Shown here one piece after another: positions 7,228 through 58,860 of a DNA stretch of 64,000 nt; position 1 is the first letter of the stretch; every line of letters starts with the position of its first letter. The position numbers and the translations under genes are program-made. The stretch is from contig CAIZFE010000029.1 in assembly GCA_903932145.1 (NCBI GenBank), positions 1 through 64,000 of the forward strand, written 5' to 3'. The stretch comes from an uncultured Rhodopila sp. Lineage in GTDB: Bacteria > Pseudomonadota > Alphaproteobacteria > Acetobacterales > Acetobacteraceae. The notes under the pieces are model-generated. The model did no database searches. It worked only from the letters and a program-made list of their open reading frames with translations, and was not told the DNA's origin.

Positions 7228-7307
7228 CGCGGCGCTGTCTTTTCGCTCTCCGTCATCGCAATTTTGGGATAACTTGCCCATTTGGCATGGCAAGGCATTA
7301 TTCTCTC

Positions 7308-7432
7308 CGTCAGGGCTAGGCTTCATTCTCTTCCTCATGACCGGGCTTTATTCTCTTCGTCATGGCCTGGCTTTATTCTCTTCGTCATGGCCGGGCTTTA
7401 TTCTCTCCGTCATGACCGGGCTTTATGCTCTT
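7308..7432. repeat. 25-bp direct tandem repeat, five units
   Basis: Five adjoining 25-base units (7308, 7333, 7358, 7383, 7408) share the form cgtcatgrccgggctttattctctt; the first unit is the most diverged. Each begins with the first bases of the palindromic repeat that directly follows at 7433. There are no spacers. The 7228-7557 stretch between fabF and the next gene holds only this array and the palindrome. Confidence 0.9.
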
Positions 7433-7522
7433 CGTCATGACCGGGCTTGGCCCGGTCACCCACGACTTTGCTTGGCGCTGCACAGGAAGTCGTGGGTGGC
7501 CGGGCCAAGCCCGGCCATGACG
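7433..7522. repeat. Dispersed palindromic repeat, copy 2
   Basis: This 90-base inverted repeat matches copy 1 base for base in its arms apart from a few changes (gaccggg for gccgggc). A shortened tail with aaatcctccccacc follows at about 7530-7545. It lies between the convergent ends of fabF and the minus-strand gene at 7558 and could form a strong hairpin in either transcript. Confidence 0.9.
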
Positions 7523-7557
7523 CGTAGGTAAATCCTCCCCACCAAACGCGCGCCCCC

Positions 7558-26116: not shown

Positions 26117-27553
26117 GTGGATATCAATCTTGACACCGTCATGGCGCTCGGACTGGCGGCCTTTACCCGGGGCGATCATCCGGCAGCCGAGGCGCATTTT
26201 CGCGACGCGCTTGGTGCCGGGCACGACGACGCGGACTTGCATCATCATCTCGGCTACCTCGCCCGGACCCGCGGCGATCTGGACGAAGCCGCCGCCCGCT
26301 ATGTCGATGCGCTGCGGCATGCGCCGCTGGATGTGCATCTGCACAACAATCTGGGCGAAACCCGACGGGCACAGGGCCACGCGGCGGAAGCCATGGCACT
26401 GTTCCGGCGCGCCCTGGCATTGTCGCCGGACGAGGCCCCGATCGCCGCCAATCTGGGGTCTCTGCTGTTGGCGATGCAACGCCCCGACCTGGCGCTGCCG
26501 CATCTGGAGCACGCCGTCGCGCTGGAACCCGGCGCGTCGCAGGTGCATTCGGACATCGCGGTGTGCTTGTGCAGCATGAACCGTTACAGCGAATCACTGG
26601 CGGTTTACCGTCGGATGGTTGAAATCCAACCGGCCGACAACGATGCCCGCTATCTGGAGGCATTGGCTCTTCTGGCGCTGGGTGACTTCGACAACGGCTG
26701 GCGCCAGCACGAGGTTCGCTGGCAGGCCGCCCTCGGTCAGTCGATGCGGCATGTCGTGCCGGGTCCGGCGTGGCTGGGTGACGAAGACCTGAGCGGCCGC
26801 ACCATCCTGGTGCATGCGGAACAGGGCCACGGCGACACCGTCATGTTCATGCGCTACGTGCCGTTGCTGCGTGCGATGGGTGCCCGGGTGATCCTGGAAG
26901 TCCAACCCGCGTTGAAGCCGCTGCTGACTGACATGTCCGACGTGTGTGCGCGTGGCGAGGACCTTCCCGCTTACGATGTCCAGTGCTCGCTGATGAGCCT
27001 GCCACGGGCGTTTCGAACGACGTGTGAAACGATCCCGTCCGAGCTTCCTTACCTGACCGTGCCGGCCGCCAGCCTGGACAAATGGCGCGCTCGGTTGGGC
27101 CCGTCCGACGGGCGGCGGCGCATTGCGATTGCCTGGACCGGCGCCAGCGCGGTGTGGAACCGCTCGATCCCGCTGCCGCTGCTGAAGCCGCTGTTTGAAC
27201 GGTCCGACTGCGTATTCCACATCGTGCAGACGACGATGGAGCCGGATGACCGTTCGACCCTGGAACGGCTTCCTACATTGATCGATCACAGCGCCGATCT
27301 GGCCGATTTCGCCGACACCGCCGGGATCGTGGCACTGATGGATCTGGTGATCAGCGTTGATACCGTGCTGGCTCACCTGGGCGGGGCGCTGGGCAAGCCG
27401 ACCTGGACGATGCTGCCGTTCGGTGCGGAATACCGCTGGCTGACGCGGGGCACGACCTCGGCGTGGTATCCCGGCATGCGCCTGTTCCGGCAACCTGAGC
27501 TGTTCGGCTGGCCTCAGGTGGTTGCGGCGATCGATGCGGCACTGTCGGCATGA
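26117..27553 (+). CDS. TPR protein with GT9-like glycosyltransferase domain, paralogue 1
   Basis: The N-terminal half (about 5-190) of this 478-residue protein is a run of tetratricopeptide repeats (ALGLAAFTRGDHPAAEAHFRDAL, NLGETRRAQGHAAEAMALFRRAL). The C-terminal half is a GT-B-like domain of the GT9/heptosyltransferase type (GRTILVHAEQGHGDTVMFMRYVPLL, IAIAWTGASAVWNRSIPLPLL, DLVISVDTVLAHLGGALGKPTW). It probably transfers or helps transfer sugars to surface polysaccharide or protein. The GTG start at 26117 lies 77 bases from the divergent exonuclease gene. Its stop overlaps the next gene's ATG by four bases. Confidence 0.85.
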   Translation: MDINLDTVMALGLAAFTRGDHPAAEAHFRDALGAGHDDADLHHHLGYLARTRGDLDEAAARYVDALRHAPLDVHLHNNLGETRRAQGHAAEAMALFRRALALSPDEAPIAANLGSLLLAMQRPDLALPHLEHAVALEPGASQVHSDIAVCLCSMNRYSESLAVYRRMVEIQPADNDARYLEALALLALGDFDNGWRQHEVRWQAALGQSMRHVVPGPAWLGDEDLSGRTILVHAEQGHGDTVMFMRYVPLLRAMGARVILEVQPALKPLLTDMSDVCARGEDLPAYDVQCSLMSLPRAFRTTCETIPSELPYLTVPAASLDKWRARLGPSDGRRRIAIAWTGASAVWNRSIPLPLLKPLFERSDCVFHIVQTTMEPDDRSTLERLPTLIDHSADLADFADTAGIVALMDLVISVDTVLAHLGGALGKPTWTMLPFGAEYRWLTRGTTSAWYPGMRLFRQPELFGWPQVVAAIDAALSA

Positions 27554-29373
27554 ATGCCTATGCCGAGCTGCTGTTGGGGGCGGCATTCGAGGCTTTCGCG
27601 GCGGGCCGCCGCGATCAGGCCGAGATCGCTTTGCGCCTGGCGGTCGGAGGCGGCGACCGCGACGCCCACGTCTTGTATTTCCTGGGCCATCTGTATCATC
27701 TCGCGGGACGCTATGACGACGCCGCCTGGTTCCTGACCGCCGCGCTGACAATCGATCCGAACCACGCGCGGGCGCACAACGATCTGGGGGAAACGTTGCG
27801 TGGTCAGGGCTTCCTGGAGGAGGCCGTCCCGCACCTGCAACGGGCGATTGCGCTGGAACCCTCGCTGGCGCACCCGTATGGCAATCTGGCCGCCGCCCTG
27901 GTTGCGTTAGACCGGCCGCGTGAGGCCCTGCGCTGGGCTCAGGAATCGTTGCACCGCTCGACCGACAAAGCGGTTGCCCATTGCGATATGGGGAGTGTCT
28001 TTGGACGGTTAAATCGAACGAAGGAAGCAATCCGGCAATACGATCTGGCCCTGGAGCTGTCTCCCGGCAACCCGCGCGCCTATTACTTCCGCGGACTGAT
28101 GCGGCTGACGTTGGGACAGATGCCGGACGGCTGGGCCGACCACGAGGCACGGCTGGTGTTGCAGGGCCTGCGCTATCCCGAAGCGACACACTGGACCGGC
28201 CGGCAGGATCTGACCGGACGCACGATCCTGCTTTACGACGAACAAGGGCTGGGCGACACCATCCAGTTCATTCGTTACGTCCCTCTGGTCGCGGCGCTTG
28301 GCGCCACCGTTCTGATCGAAGTGCAGCGCGGCCTTGGTTCGTTACTTGCGACCAGTTTCAGTCAGGTTTTCGAGGTCGGAGACACTTTGCCCGCATTCGA
28401 CCTGCATTGTCCGATGATGAGCCTGCCGGCCGTTCTTGGCATCAATTCCGCCGTCTCGGCGGGCAAAGGGCCGCCATCTGAGGCGATGCCCAATAATGAG
28501 CAAATCCAATCCCATCGTCATGGGCCGGACAAGCTGGATAGGCGACTTGGCGAGGAGGATGTTCCAATTCGTCATGGCCGGGCTTGGCCCCATAGGCATC
28601 AGGATAAGCGCTGGGCGGAGAAAGGTTGTGCCACGGACGTGGTTTTTCCCTCTCCGTCATGGCCGGGCTTGGCCCGGCCACCCACGACTGTCTGTGCCGC
28701 GCCAACCAAAGTCCCGGGTGACCGGGCCAAGCCCGGTCATGACGAATGGGCAAATCCTCCCCACCCAACGGCTTATCCTGATGCCTATGGCGCCAAGCCG
28801 AGCCATGACGATAAGAGCAATGGCAACATACCCGCCAACGTGTCGTATTTGGCGGCCGATCCGCTGATCCAGGCTGCATGGTCGAACCGCCTCGGACCAT
28901 GGCGGAAACCGCGCGTCGGTCTGGCATGGTCCGGCAACACCTTGCACGCCGCCGACCGGGCGCGGTCCATCCCTCTGGCAATGCTGGCACCATTGCTAAG
29001 CCGGACGGATATCGCGTGCCATGTCGTGCAACGGGATATCCGCGACAGCGACCGTGCGGCGATGGTCGATGTTCCTGAATTGACTGACCATAGCGCCGGA
29101 TTGACGGATTTCAGCCAGACTGCCGGACTGATCGCATCGATGGATTTGGTTATCGCGGTCGATACGGCCGTGCTGCACCTTGCCGGCGCCATGAATGTCC
29201 CGGCCCGGGCGATGCTGTCGCACAGCGCGGACTGGCGATGGATGCGGGACCGTGACGACTCGCCCTGGTATCCCGGGATGCGGCTGTTCCGCCAGACGCG
29301 GCAGGGCGACTGGACTTCGGTCATTGAACGGATCGGTGCCGACCTCGACCAGCGGGCGCTCGATCGCCGATGA
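27550..29373 (+). CDS. TPR/GT9-like paralogue 2 with an in-frame repeat insertion
   Basis: At 607 residues this has the same plan as its neighbours: TPRs to about residue 195, then the GT domain (GRTILLYDEQGLGDTIQFIRYVPLV ... VGLAWSGNTLHAADRARSIPL ... DLVIAVDTAVLHLAGAMNVP). Between MMSLPAVLGI (near residue 298) and NIPANVSYLAADP (near 424) lie about 127 residues with no counterpart in the paralogues. Their DNA contains the dispersed palindromic repeat. Removing them leaves about 480 residues, matching 478 for paralogue 1. The insertion sits in a loop just before the domain's second half; whether the protein still works is open. Confidence 0.82.
   Translation: MNAYAELLLGAAFEAFAAGRRDQAEIALRLAVGGGDRDAHVLYFLGHLYHLAGRYDDAAWFLTAALTIDPNHARAHNDLGETLRGQGFLEEAVPHLQRAIALEPSLAHPYGNLAAALVALDRPREALRWAQESLHRSTDKAVAHCDMGSVFGRLNRTKEAIRQYDLALELSPGNPRAYYFRGLMRLTLGQMPDGWADHEARLVLQGLRYPEATHWTGRQDLTGRTILLYDEQGLGDTIQFIRYVPLVAALGATVLIEVQRGLGSLLATSFSQVFEVGDTLPAFDLHCPMMSLPAVLGINSAVSAGKGPPSEAMPNNEQIQSHRHGPDKLDRRLGEEDVPIRHGRAWPHRHQDKRWAEKGCATDVVFPSPSWPGLARPPTTVCAAPTKVPGDRAKPGHDEWANPPHPTAYPDAYGAKPSHDDKSNGNIPANVSYLAADPLIQAAWSNRLGPWRKPRVGLAWSGNTLHAADRARSIPLAMLAPLLSRTDIACHVVQRDIRDSDRAAMVDVPELTDHSAGLTDFSQTAGLIASMDLVIAVDTAVLHLAGAMNVPARAMLSHSADWRWMRDRDDSPWYPGMRLFRQTRQGDWTSVIERIGADLDQRALDRR
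28570..28810. repeat. Dispersed palindromic repeat, copy 3, inside a coding region
   Basis: The 90-base palindrome at 28655-28744 is followed by the same 66-base tail as copy 1 (aatgggcaaatcctcccc to ccatgacg at 28810). It is preceded from 28570 by an inverted version of that tail (cgtcatggccgggcttggcc, then ataggcatcaggataagc), making a 241-base nested inverted repeat. A more diverged piece begins at 28527. All lie within the insertion in the second TPR/GT gene and stay open in its frame. Confidence 0.9.
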
Positions 29374-30626
29374 ATCCCTATACACAGGCGCTTCATGATC
29401 TGCTGCAAGCACCGTTGGAAGCCAGGCGTATCGGCGAAGCGGTGCCATTGCTGAAATGGGCCATCCAATCAGGCGCGGACGAGCCGTATTTTCTCTACGC
29501 GCTGGGAAACTGCCAGTTCCTGGCAGGTGACTACCCCGAAGCAGCCATCGCGCTGACACAGGCGACGCGGATGGACCCGGGGCGCGCGGAGGCCTTCAAC
29601 GACCTTGCCGCCGCGCTTTTCGTGCTGGGCCGTGACGCCGAGGCTTTGGCTTGTCTGCAACGGTCCCTGGCCCTGCGACCCGATCTGGCGGAAGCGCAGG
29701 AAACCGACGCCATCTGGCTGTTGCGGTACGGCCGTTTCCACGAGGGGTGGCGCAAATACGAATCCCGCTTTCGCACCAGGGCCAACCAGAACCTGTGGCG
29801 CGCCTTCCCCCAGCCGGTCTGGACCGGAGAGCCGTTGCTTGGACGGACCATTCTGCTTCATGCGGAACAAGGTCTTGGCGACGCGTTGCAGTTCGTCCGG
29901 TACGCTCCGTTGGTGGCCGCGCGCGGCGGGCGGGTCATTGTCGAGGTTTATGCCGAGGTCAGCCCGTTGCTGCTGCATTTGCCGGCCGGCATTCGGGTTG
30001 TGCATACCGGCTCGCCGTTGCCGCATTTCGACCTACATTGTTCGTTGCTGAGCCTGCCGATGGTGTTCGATACGGATCTGGACAGTATCCCCGCCACGAT
30101 CCCCTATCTGACCGTGCCCGACGTGCGGTTGGCGAAATGGCGGGACAAGCTGGGGCCGCGACGAGGCTTGCGAGTGGGCGTCGCGTGGTCCGGCAATCCG
30201 AACCATCGCGACGATGCGCGCCGAAGCATCCCGTTAGAACTTTTTTCAACGCTGCTGATCGACCGGCCGGAGGTTGAGTTTCACGTCGTGCAGGCTGACA
30301 TGCGAGCGGCCGACCGCGCGGCGTTGCGGCGTATGCCGCATGTTTGCAACCATGCGGCGGAGCTGCACGATTTCGGCGACACCGGCGCTTTGGTGTCATT
30401 GATGGATGTTGTGATATCCGTCGACACATCGGTCATTCATCTGGCGGGTGCTCTGAACCGGCCCGTCTGGCTGCTGTTGGCGCATTTGGCCGACTGGCGG
30501 TGGTTGCTGGAGCGTGATGACAGCCCCTGGTATCCGTCGTTGCTGCTGTTGCGTCAGCGGGAACGCGGCGACTGGTCCAGTATTTTGGCGGATGTCGAGG
30601 CGCGATTACAGGCGATAGTTGCTTGA
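29370..30626 (+). CDS. TPR/GT9-like glycosyltransferase paralogue 3
   Basis: This 418-residue third member of the coupled trio has fewer TPRs (about 1-125). Its GT domain has GRTILLHAEQGLGDALQFVRYAPLV, VGVAWSGNPNHRDDARRSIPLE and DVVISVDTSVIHLAGALNRPVW. Its ATG overlaps the preceding stop (ATGA). Co-translation of three homologues suggests a complex or consecutive sugar transfers, for example in surface glycan or flagellin modification; no acceptor gene is adjacent. Confidence 0.85.
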   Translation: MNPYTQALHDLLQAPLEARRIGEAVPLLKWAIQSGADEPYFLYALGNCQFLAGDYPEAAIALTQATRMDPGRAEAFNDLAAALFVLGRDAEALACLQRSLALRPDLAEAQETDAIWLLRYGRFHEGWRKYESRFRTRANQNLWRAFPQPVWTGEPLLGRTILLHAEQGLGDALQFVRYAPLVAARGGRVIVEVYAEVSPLLLHLPAGIRVVHTGSPLPHFDLHCSLLSLPMVFDTDLDSIPATIPYLTVPDVRLAKWRDKLGPRRGLRVGVAWSGNPNHRDDARRSIPLELFSTLLIDRPEVEFHVVQADMRAADRAALRRMPHVCNHAAELHDFGDTGALVSLMDVVISVDTSVIHLAGALNRPVWLLLAHLADWRWLLERDDSPWYPSLLLLRQRERGDWSSILADVEARLQAIVA

Positions 30627-58492: not shown

Positions 58493-58567
58493 GGTTTTGC
58501 GGAGCAATCCAGGTAATCGCCGTGCCGCTGCCATCTCTTCACGAGGGGGACGCGTCCTGCCTCAACC

Positions 58568-58853
58568 CGTCATGGCCCGGCTCGTCCACATAGGCGTCAA
58601 CTTAAGCGGTGGACCGGGAGAATTTGCCCATTCGTCATGGCCGGGCCTGGCCCGGCCACCCACGACTTCTTATGCCGCCAAAGCAAAGTCCCGGGTGACC
58701 GGGCCAAGCCCTGTCATGACGGAGAGTGAAAAGCCACCTCCGGGGAAAGATATTCTCTGCCGTCCAATGAAGTTGACGCGTATGCGGCTGCTCTGGCCCA
58801 CCCATGCCAAGGTGGTGCCGCAACGGGTGGCCCGGACAAGCCGGGCCATGACG
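58568..58853. repeat. Dispersed palindromic repeat, copy 5, between moxR and DUF58 genes
   Basis: This 286-base composite holds the palindrome at 58633-58721, an inverted tail on its left (cgtcatggcccggctcgtcc, ataggcgtcaactt, aatttgcccatt) and a diverged tail on its right (gttgacgcgtatgcgg) ending ccgggccatgacg at 58853. It takes up most of the 368-base gap 58493-58860. Its end lies eight bases before the DUF58 start, so that gene's ribosome site overlaps repeat DNA. Confidence 0.9.
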
Positions 58854-58860
58854 GTCGGGT

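Follow-up and report, generated by a model that had tools for sequence, protein, structure and literature searches.

The window analyzed here is a 64,000-nt stretch of DNA from an uncultured Rhodopila sp., located on contig 29 of a draft genome (6.66 Mb, 115 contigs). Three tandem paralogous genes for TPR-glycosyltransferases lie on its plus strand, at 26117–27553, 27550–29373 and 29370–30626. The middle gene encodes a TPR and GT9-like protein of 607 residues, its frame open throughout, with Pfam matches to TPR_1 (2.4e-18) and Glyco_transf_9 (3.9e-6, residues 516–552). Its closest copy among named relatives is that of Acidisphaera sp. S103 (locus L031), a member of the Acetobacteraceae. The upstream and downstream paralogues encode proteins of 478 and 418 residues. 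As the original prediction had it, the middle protein alone carries a block of about 127 residues, flanked by MMSLP and IPANVSYLAADP; both paralogues are short at this place, and the ORF of the middle gene is unbroken.

In the middle protein the loop from P293 to Y433 spans 139 residues, compared to 14–16 in all 59 other sequences aligned (57 homologues and the two paralogues). A smaller alignment (A1), made of 44 of the 57 two-part homologues plus the window's three proteins (the middle one and its two neighboring paralogues), gives 14 or 15 residues in all 46 other sequences. These counts rule out a loop typical of the family. Relative to the closest orthologue, in G025, the excess is 127 residues or 381 bp, which places the insertion at 28444–28824 (+), with junctions uncertain by up to ∼15 bp. 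The empty site that the original prediction proposed to look for is present in all four orthologues (G025, G031, G032 and G021). A copy of the upstream paralogue adjoins the orthologue in each of the four and a copy of the downstream paralogue in three, none being found beside the G032 orthologue. The original prediction would have been rejected by a similar loop in other family members or by these residues in a genome free of the repeat; such a loop occurs in 0 of the 59 homologues, and the site is empty in G021, a genome with no repeat matches at E ≤ 0.001. G025 does contain the repeat family (41 matches), yet its site is empty as well. No match spanning the block was seen among those listed for 59 genomes. 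A codon score, home-made like our gene caller and trained on this window, is positive upstream of the block, negative in the 90-bp windows spanning 28540–28809, and positive again downstream. Judged by these sequence comparisons, the block is an insertion into the middle gene.

The block's DNA had been described as one dispersed palindrome with two tails. The dispersed repeat was borne out (340 core sites versus none for a control pattern), but the block is a mosaic of several pieces, consisting for the most part of CGTC-tagged REP palindromes joined in a composite. A 31-bp piece at its left end (28448–28478) has a single other match in the genome, at 90% identity (L227:499–529). This piece is followed by the leader and head of a second REP type (28478–28528, +), which is 79–89% identical over 47–52 bp to five other places and 76% identical to a sixth (E 0.014), and by a tail-like piece (∼28536–28568) common to the flanks of other REP dimers; here, 28536–28590 matches 28724–28778 in inverted orientation at 80% (inverted repeats I9 and I12). 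Most of the remainder is a 243-bp REP composite (28569–28811), in which an outer inverted pair surrounds an inner head-to-head dimer (inverted repeats I10 and I11). The arms of the outer pair (28569–28609 and 28771–28811) are 93% complementary, and the inner CGTC-REP dimer (28655–28744) has its cores at 28655–28677 (+) and 28722–28744 (–). The best long copies of the composite elsewhere in the genome are 91–92% identical. A few bases (28444–28447, 28529–28535 and 28812–28824) match none of these pieces. The block has no match in the plasmid collection, and its Rfam microRNA matches (best mir-5882, 43.7 bits, E 2.3e-6) fall below the gathering scores (95 and 99) and were taken as chance hairpin similarity.

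Used as a query, the 380-bp block matches 115 pieces in its own genome, self included. The REP core, CGTCATGRCCGGGCTTGGCCCGG, occurs at 340 genome sites with ≤3 mismatches (171 forward, 169 reverse), and the reversed control pattern occurs at none. This core bears an unpaired CGTC tag at the end of the palindrome, as CGTC-tagged REPs do. Units of that super-family have a stem of 8–9 bp opening with A–T pairs, a loop of 4–5 bases and a CCA-like tail. Read by eye, the unit has an 8-bp stem (TGGCCGGG/CCCGGCCA) and a 5-base loop, CTTGG; the A preceding the stem lies opposite C, so that one of the two family-typical A–T pairs is present. Many of the core pairs listed, including the dimer in the middle gene, are head-to-head, a plus core being followed by a minus core with starts 67 bp apart.

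Several contigs, including this one, start or finish in REPs, and with a draft in 115 contigs one might suspect that assembly misjoined a repeat into the gene. We regard such an artefact as very improbable. The sequences on either side are parts of a single gene, with their order conserved and the frame shared, the excess is divisible by three, and the separate assemblies of G008 and G022 show like insertions at the same places in other genes (see below). One caveat is that, given the contig ends in REPs, the assembly may contain errors inside the block.

Elsewhere, the repeat was thought to occur only between genes. This is true of the window's three other REP clusters, at 1–155 (the contig end; same family), 7415–7548 and 58567–58854, but not of the genome, where seven other genes contain the repeat in frame. 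The second of these clusters lies beside a tandem array with 25-bp spacing (7281–7455), whose units resemble degenerate REP heads and which the REP dimer directly adjoins. Across 763 kb (all of C4 plus 400 kb of C86), a census counted 34 REP clusters, 26 of them intergenic, three on a gene edge and five inside called genes; three of these five belong to one repeated gene family. Since the coding fraction of the two stretches is 0.86 and 0.87 by our home-made caller, random placement would be mostly intragenic.

To find other genes that carry the repeat, we analyzed 98 REP clusters (201 core sites), chosen by similarity and from among the core sites listed, and hence biased towards good matches rather than a random sample. 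Sixteen ORF matches run through a cluster and have a coding signature both before and after it. Six of them are copies of one gene family (L103, L114, L135, L137, L139 and L148), and two (L120 and the second L141 match) were taken as shadow ORFs, since the best scores of their flanks lie on the other strand; with these set aside, eight genes are left. These are the middle glycosyltransferase gene and genes for a GT4 glycosyltransferase (L086), a SNF2-type helicase (L087), DnaE2 (L102), CobW (L141), an alpha/beta hydrolase (L142), an acyl-CoA synthetase-like AMP-binding enzyme (L143) and a probable membrane protein (L074, so named by reading the sequence, with no Pfam or NCBIfam match). That all eight are in frame is partly built in, as the search looked for open ORFs and decayed genes would escape it. 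A second screen, for same-strand, stop-free flanks, in which 15 of the 98 clusters were too close to a locus end, gave one extra candidate, L106 (C4:15529). This reads as intergenic, between CoA-transferase-like and ABC-ATPase-like ORFs (names from translations), and was discarded as a case of a broken gene. Counted apart from the eight is C86:341035–342021, a TIGR04282-like gene (132.5 bits, slightly short of the 134 cut-off) whose 3′ region holds the repeat in frame, past the matched domain.

The family set aside above encodes proteins of ∼280 residues (e.g. L137:2631–3494, +, and L103, L114, L135 and L148). It has 53 matches in this genome, self included, of which 34 are nearly full length, and it is matched in 13 of the genus's 32 genomes, many times over in several of them (G009, G015, G028); the one member tested has no Pfam or NCBIfam match. 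Several copies contain a stretch resembling a translated REP (GGRAKPGHDE), which lies within a variable linker between the two conserved halves. Another copy, L078:1891–3100, is truncated and frameshifted, with a REP composite at its end, and counts against any rule that frames always survive.

For four of the other genes the site could be examined in relatives, from the coordinates of the two halves (GT4, CobW) or from alignments (DnaE2, acyl-CoA synthetase). The halves of the GT4 gene are adjacent, i.e. the site is empty, in all five other genomes with a match out of 11 searched (G011, G014, G025, G012 and G022); the G025 copy has two TGA codons within its first half. CobW halves are adjacent in eight of 11 other genomes (G011, G012, G022, G025, G030, G031, G032 and G021), and the other three give the first half alone at the cut-off used. 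In DnaE2, the site is empty in seven of the eight other aligned sequences (G012, two from G025, G021, G032, G030 and G031), the weakly matching G022 sequence having been left out of the alignment. In G008, DnaE2 has a REP dimer where this genome has one, the two having diverged since. For the acyl-CoA synthetase, G025, G021, G030 and G031 have a short loop and G008, G012 and G032 one of intermediate length; G022 carries a shorter REP remnant in the loop that holds this genome's insert. Where inserts share a place across species, common descent is one explanation and repeated insertion into a hot spot another. A different repeat-like stretch occurs elsewhere in DnaE2 of G030 (DnaE2 loci L102:1585–5001, L191 and L196).

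The original prediction suggested modelling whether the insertion lies in a surface loop, and the model places it in a loop or linker between folded parts. An AlphaFold model of the middle protein, built from 47 sequences, has a mean pLDDT of 81.9, with 429 of the 607 residues at ≥90 and residues 305–421 below 50. The insert lies between helix 289–295 and helix 438–448, and is probably a disordered segment linking two confidently modelled parts of the transferase. Given the fold known for GT9 enzymes, these two parts are probably the two lobes of a GT-B transferase. Fold comparison returned TPR proteins, SPINDLY and O-GlcNAc transferase, with low overall TM-scores (at most 0.41 by query length among the 50 matches listed), and a profile search returned TPR proteins and O-GlcNAc transferases, matched over the TPR part. 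Inserts in three of the other proteins also fall between Pfam domains. In GT4 the N-part ends at 279 and the C-part starts at 440, with the repeat at 289–437; the CobW insert lies between domains 4–164 and 301–395, and the DnaE2 insert lies between the finger domain (ending at 689) and the helix-hairpin-helix (starting at 852). Those of the acyl-CoA synthetase and the alpha/beta hydrolase fall inside one Pfam domain.

This positioning between domains could reflect domestication: the enzyme would then owe a new trait to the long mRNA hairpin or to the disordered linker, for example pausing of translation between domains or a different partner. The block does fold very stably as RNA (–218 kcal/mol, z –10.4 versus 100 shuffles), and DnaE2 genes are named among REP-tagged targets in an earlier survey (PMC3733652). 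However, the fold energy belongs to the palindrome wherever it is placed, and neutral insertions would also survive best in linkers. The middle gene's insert, moreover, is in 0 of the 4 orthologues and is spanned by no match listed for the 59 genomes. We therefore consider domestication unlikely.

Is the gene instead decaying? The original prediction left two options: either the repeat moves as a unit whose in-frame arrival a gene can tolerate, or the gene is dying and its frame is open by accident. Under the second, the insertion would have destroyed function recently, and the frame would be open only because the repeat is stop-poor. The repeat is indeed stop-poor: in 32 near-complete copies lying outside the genes named above, stops are absent from 59 of 192 frames (31%), compared to 13% for shuffled sequence. 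With one third of insertions preserving the frame, about one in 10 would leave a gene open by chance, and hence we dropped the open frame alone as proof of selection. Relative-rate tests of the middle gene against G025 gave private differences of 43:39, 47:41 and 44:32 with outgroups G031, G032 and G021, respectively (P = 0.74, 0.59 and 0.21). For the part after the insert, the counts were 20:13, 19:14 and 20:10 (P = 0.30, 0.49 and 0.10, the lowest being 0.099), so that the downstream half leans toward faster change in all three tests, none of them significant. The middle gene has a longer branch than its G025 counterpart (0.34 versus 0.24), while the upstream neighbor does not (0.16 versus 0.20). 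For the downstream paralogue the branches are 0.22 and 0.18, from a tree that contained a wrong G032 sequence, that of the middle gene; this voids comparisons of this paralogue with G032 and leaves the results for the middle and upstream genes as they stand. Between the middle gene and G025, dN is ∼0.24 and dS ∼1.03, values that speak against decay, although they mostly reflect time before the insertion. The coding signature continues downstream of the insert, and the DnaE2 and acyl-CoA synthetase inserts have open-frame counterparts in another species. The evidence on a dying gene is weak and, as far as sequence comparison goes, does not tip toward decay, with no significant acceleration; the insertion may be too recent to have left a mark on rates. 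A recent pseudogene strikes us as a minority possibility, more credible than domestication. The tolerated-unit option is favored because composites of the same kind lie in frame in other genes whose sites are empty in relatives, and because the codon signature is lost inside the insert with coding on both sides.

The reading we prefer, and hold to be quite probable from the sequence evidence, is that a selfish REP composite entered the gene and that in-frame insertions of this kind survive selection where they fall in linkers or loops. A non-autonomous CGTC-tagged REP composite would have inserted in the segment linking the two parts of the transferase domain. The repeat presumably lands widely, with selection removing most genic insertions. 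The survivors would be those with a length divisible by three, no stop and a position in a linker or surface loop, and translation of the surviving insert would yield a disordered stretch tolerated by the protein. The odds we give to this and the rival readings overlap, as an origin by REP insertion is common to all but the assembly artefact.

A search for Y1_Tnp (PF01797), the domain of RAYT-type transposases, gave no match in this genome, compared to matches in five of 14 control genomes; among the 32 genomes of the genus, this one included, five have matches. The family therefore resembles CGTC-REPs in having no dedicated transposase of the Y1_Tnp class, the one class tested. Di Nocera, De Gregorio and Rocco (2013) found no associated transposase for CGTC-REPs (PMC3733652). 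Their survey describes these repeats as mostly intergenic, with some in frame inside genes and DnaE2 genes among the tagged targets. Our family is alike in its CGTC head, probable stem-loop core, head-to-head dimers, mostly intergenic location, occasional in-frame insertion and DnaE2 target. It differs in the length of its inserts, 127 residues here and ∼150 in the GT4 gene. In the survey, dimers or grouped repeats of 20–30 residues make up over half of the inserts, and cluster inserts in Thauera and R. conorii reach 43–82 residues. It also differs in its host, the closest named relative being in the Acetobacteraceae, which the survey gives among the families without CGTC repeats (PMC3733652).

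A second known system is that of the Rickettsia palindromic elements (RPEs), two types of which, RPE-4 and RPE-6, correspond to CGTC repeats according to that survey (PMC3733652). RPEs lie in frame within unrelated genes, including that for DNA polymerase III alpha (PMC3767692, PMC10969869). The present inserts share with RPEs the in-frame palindromes in unrelated genes and the retention at orthologous loci. RPEs are elements of 100–150 bp in the small genomes of intracellular bacteria, whereas here we have a composite of at least four REP units in a 6.7-Mb genome. The empty site in orthologues, a further RPE-like trait, is present for the middle gene. The original papers on RPEs are reportedly those of Ogata et al. 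No report of in-frame REPs in Acetobacteraceae was found among the titles and abstract openings listed. In-frame REPs and RPEs as such are already established; what appears to be new is the length of the insert, the Acetobacteraceae setting and a genome without a Y1 transposase match.

A bolder extension would make REP composites a recurrent donor of long disordered interdomain linkers in this lineage. They would have supplied multi-domain enzymes (two glycosyltransferases, CobW and DnaE2) with spacers of ∼60–150 residues plus a strong mRNA hairpin separating the regions that code for two domains, some of them kept across species, and would have spread without a RAYT-type transposase of their own. 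Such linkers may alter co-translational folding or DnaE2 mutagenesis. We consider this improbable, though slightly less so than domestication of the middle gene's insert.

The middle gene offers a clean natural case, complete with empty sites, in which mobile non-coding DNA is predicted to have become protein sequence, in a host other than the intracellular bacteria from which such cases are best known. It would extend CGTC-REP protein insertions to the Acetobacteraceae, with inserts longer than those given in PMC3733652. A genome without a Y1 transposase match sharpens the question of how CGTC-REPs move. Finally, the presence of a DnaE2 insert in two species makes it testable whether such an insertion is neutral or alters a mutagenic polymerase.
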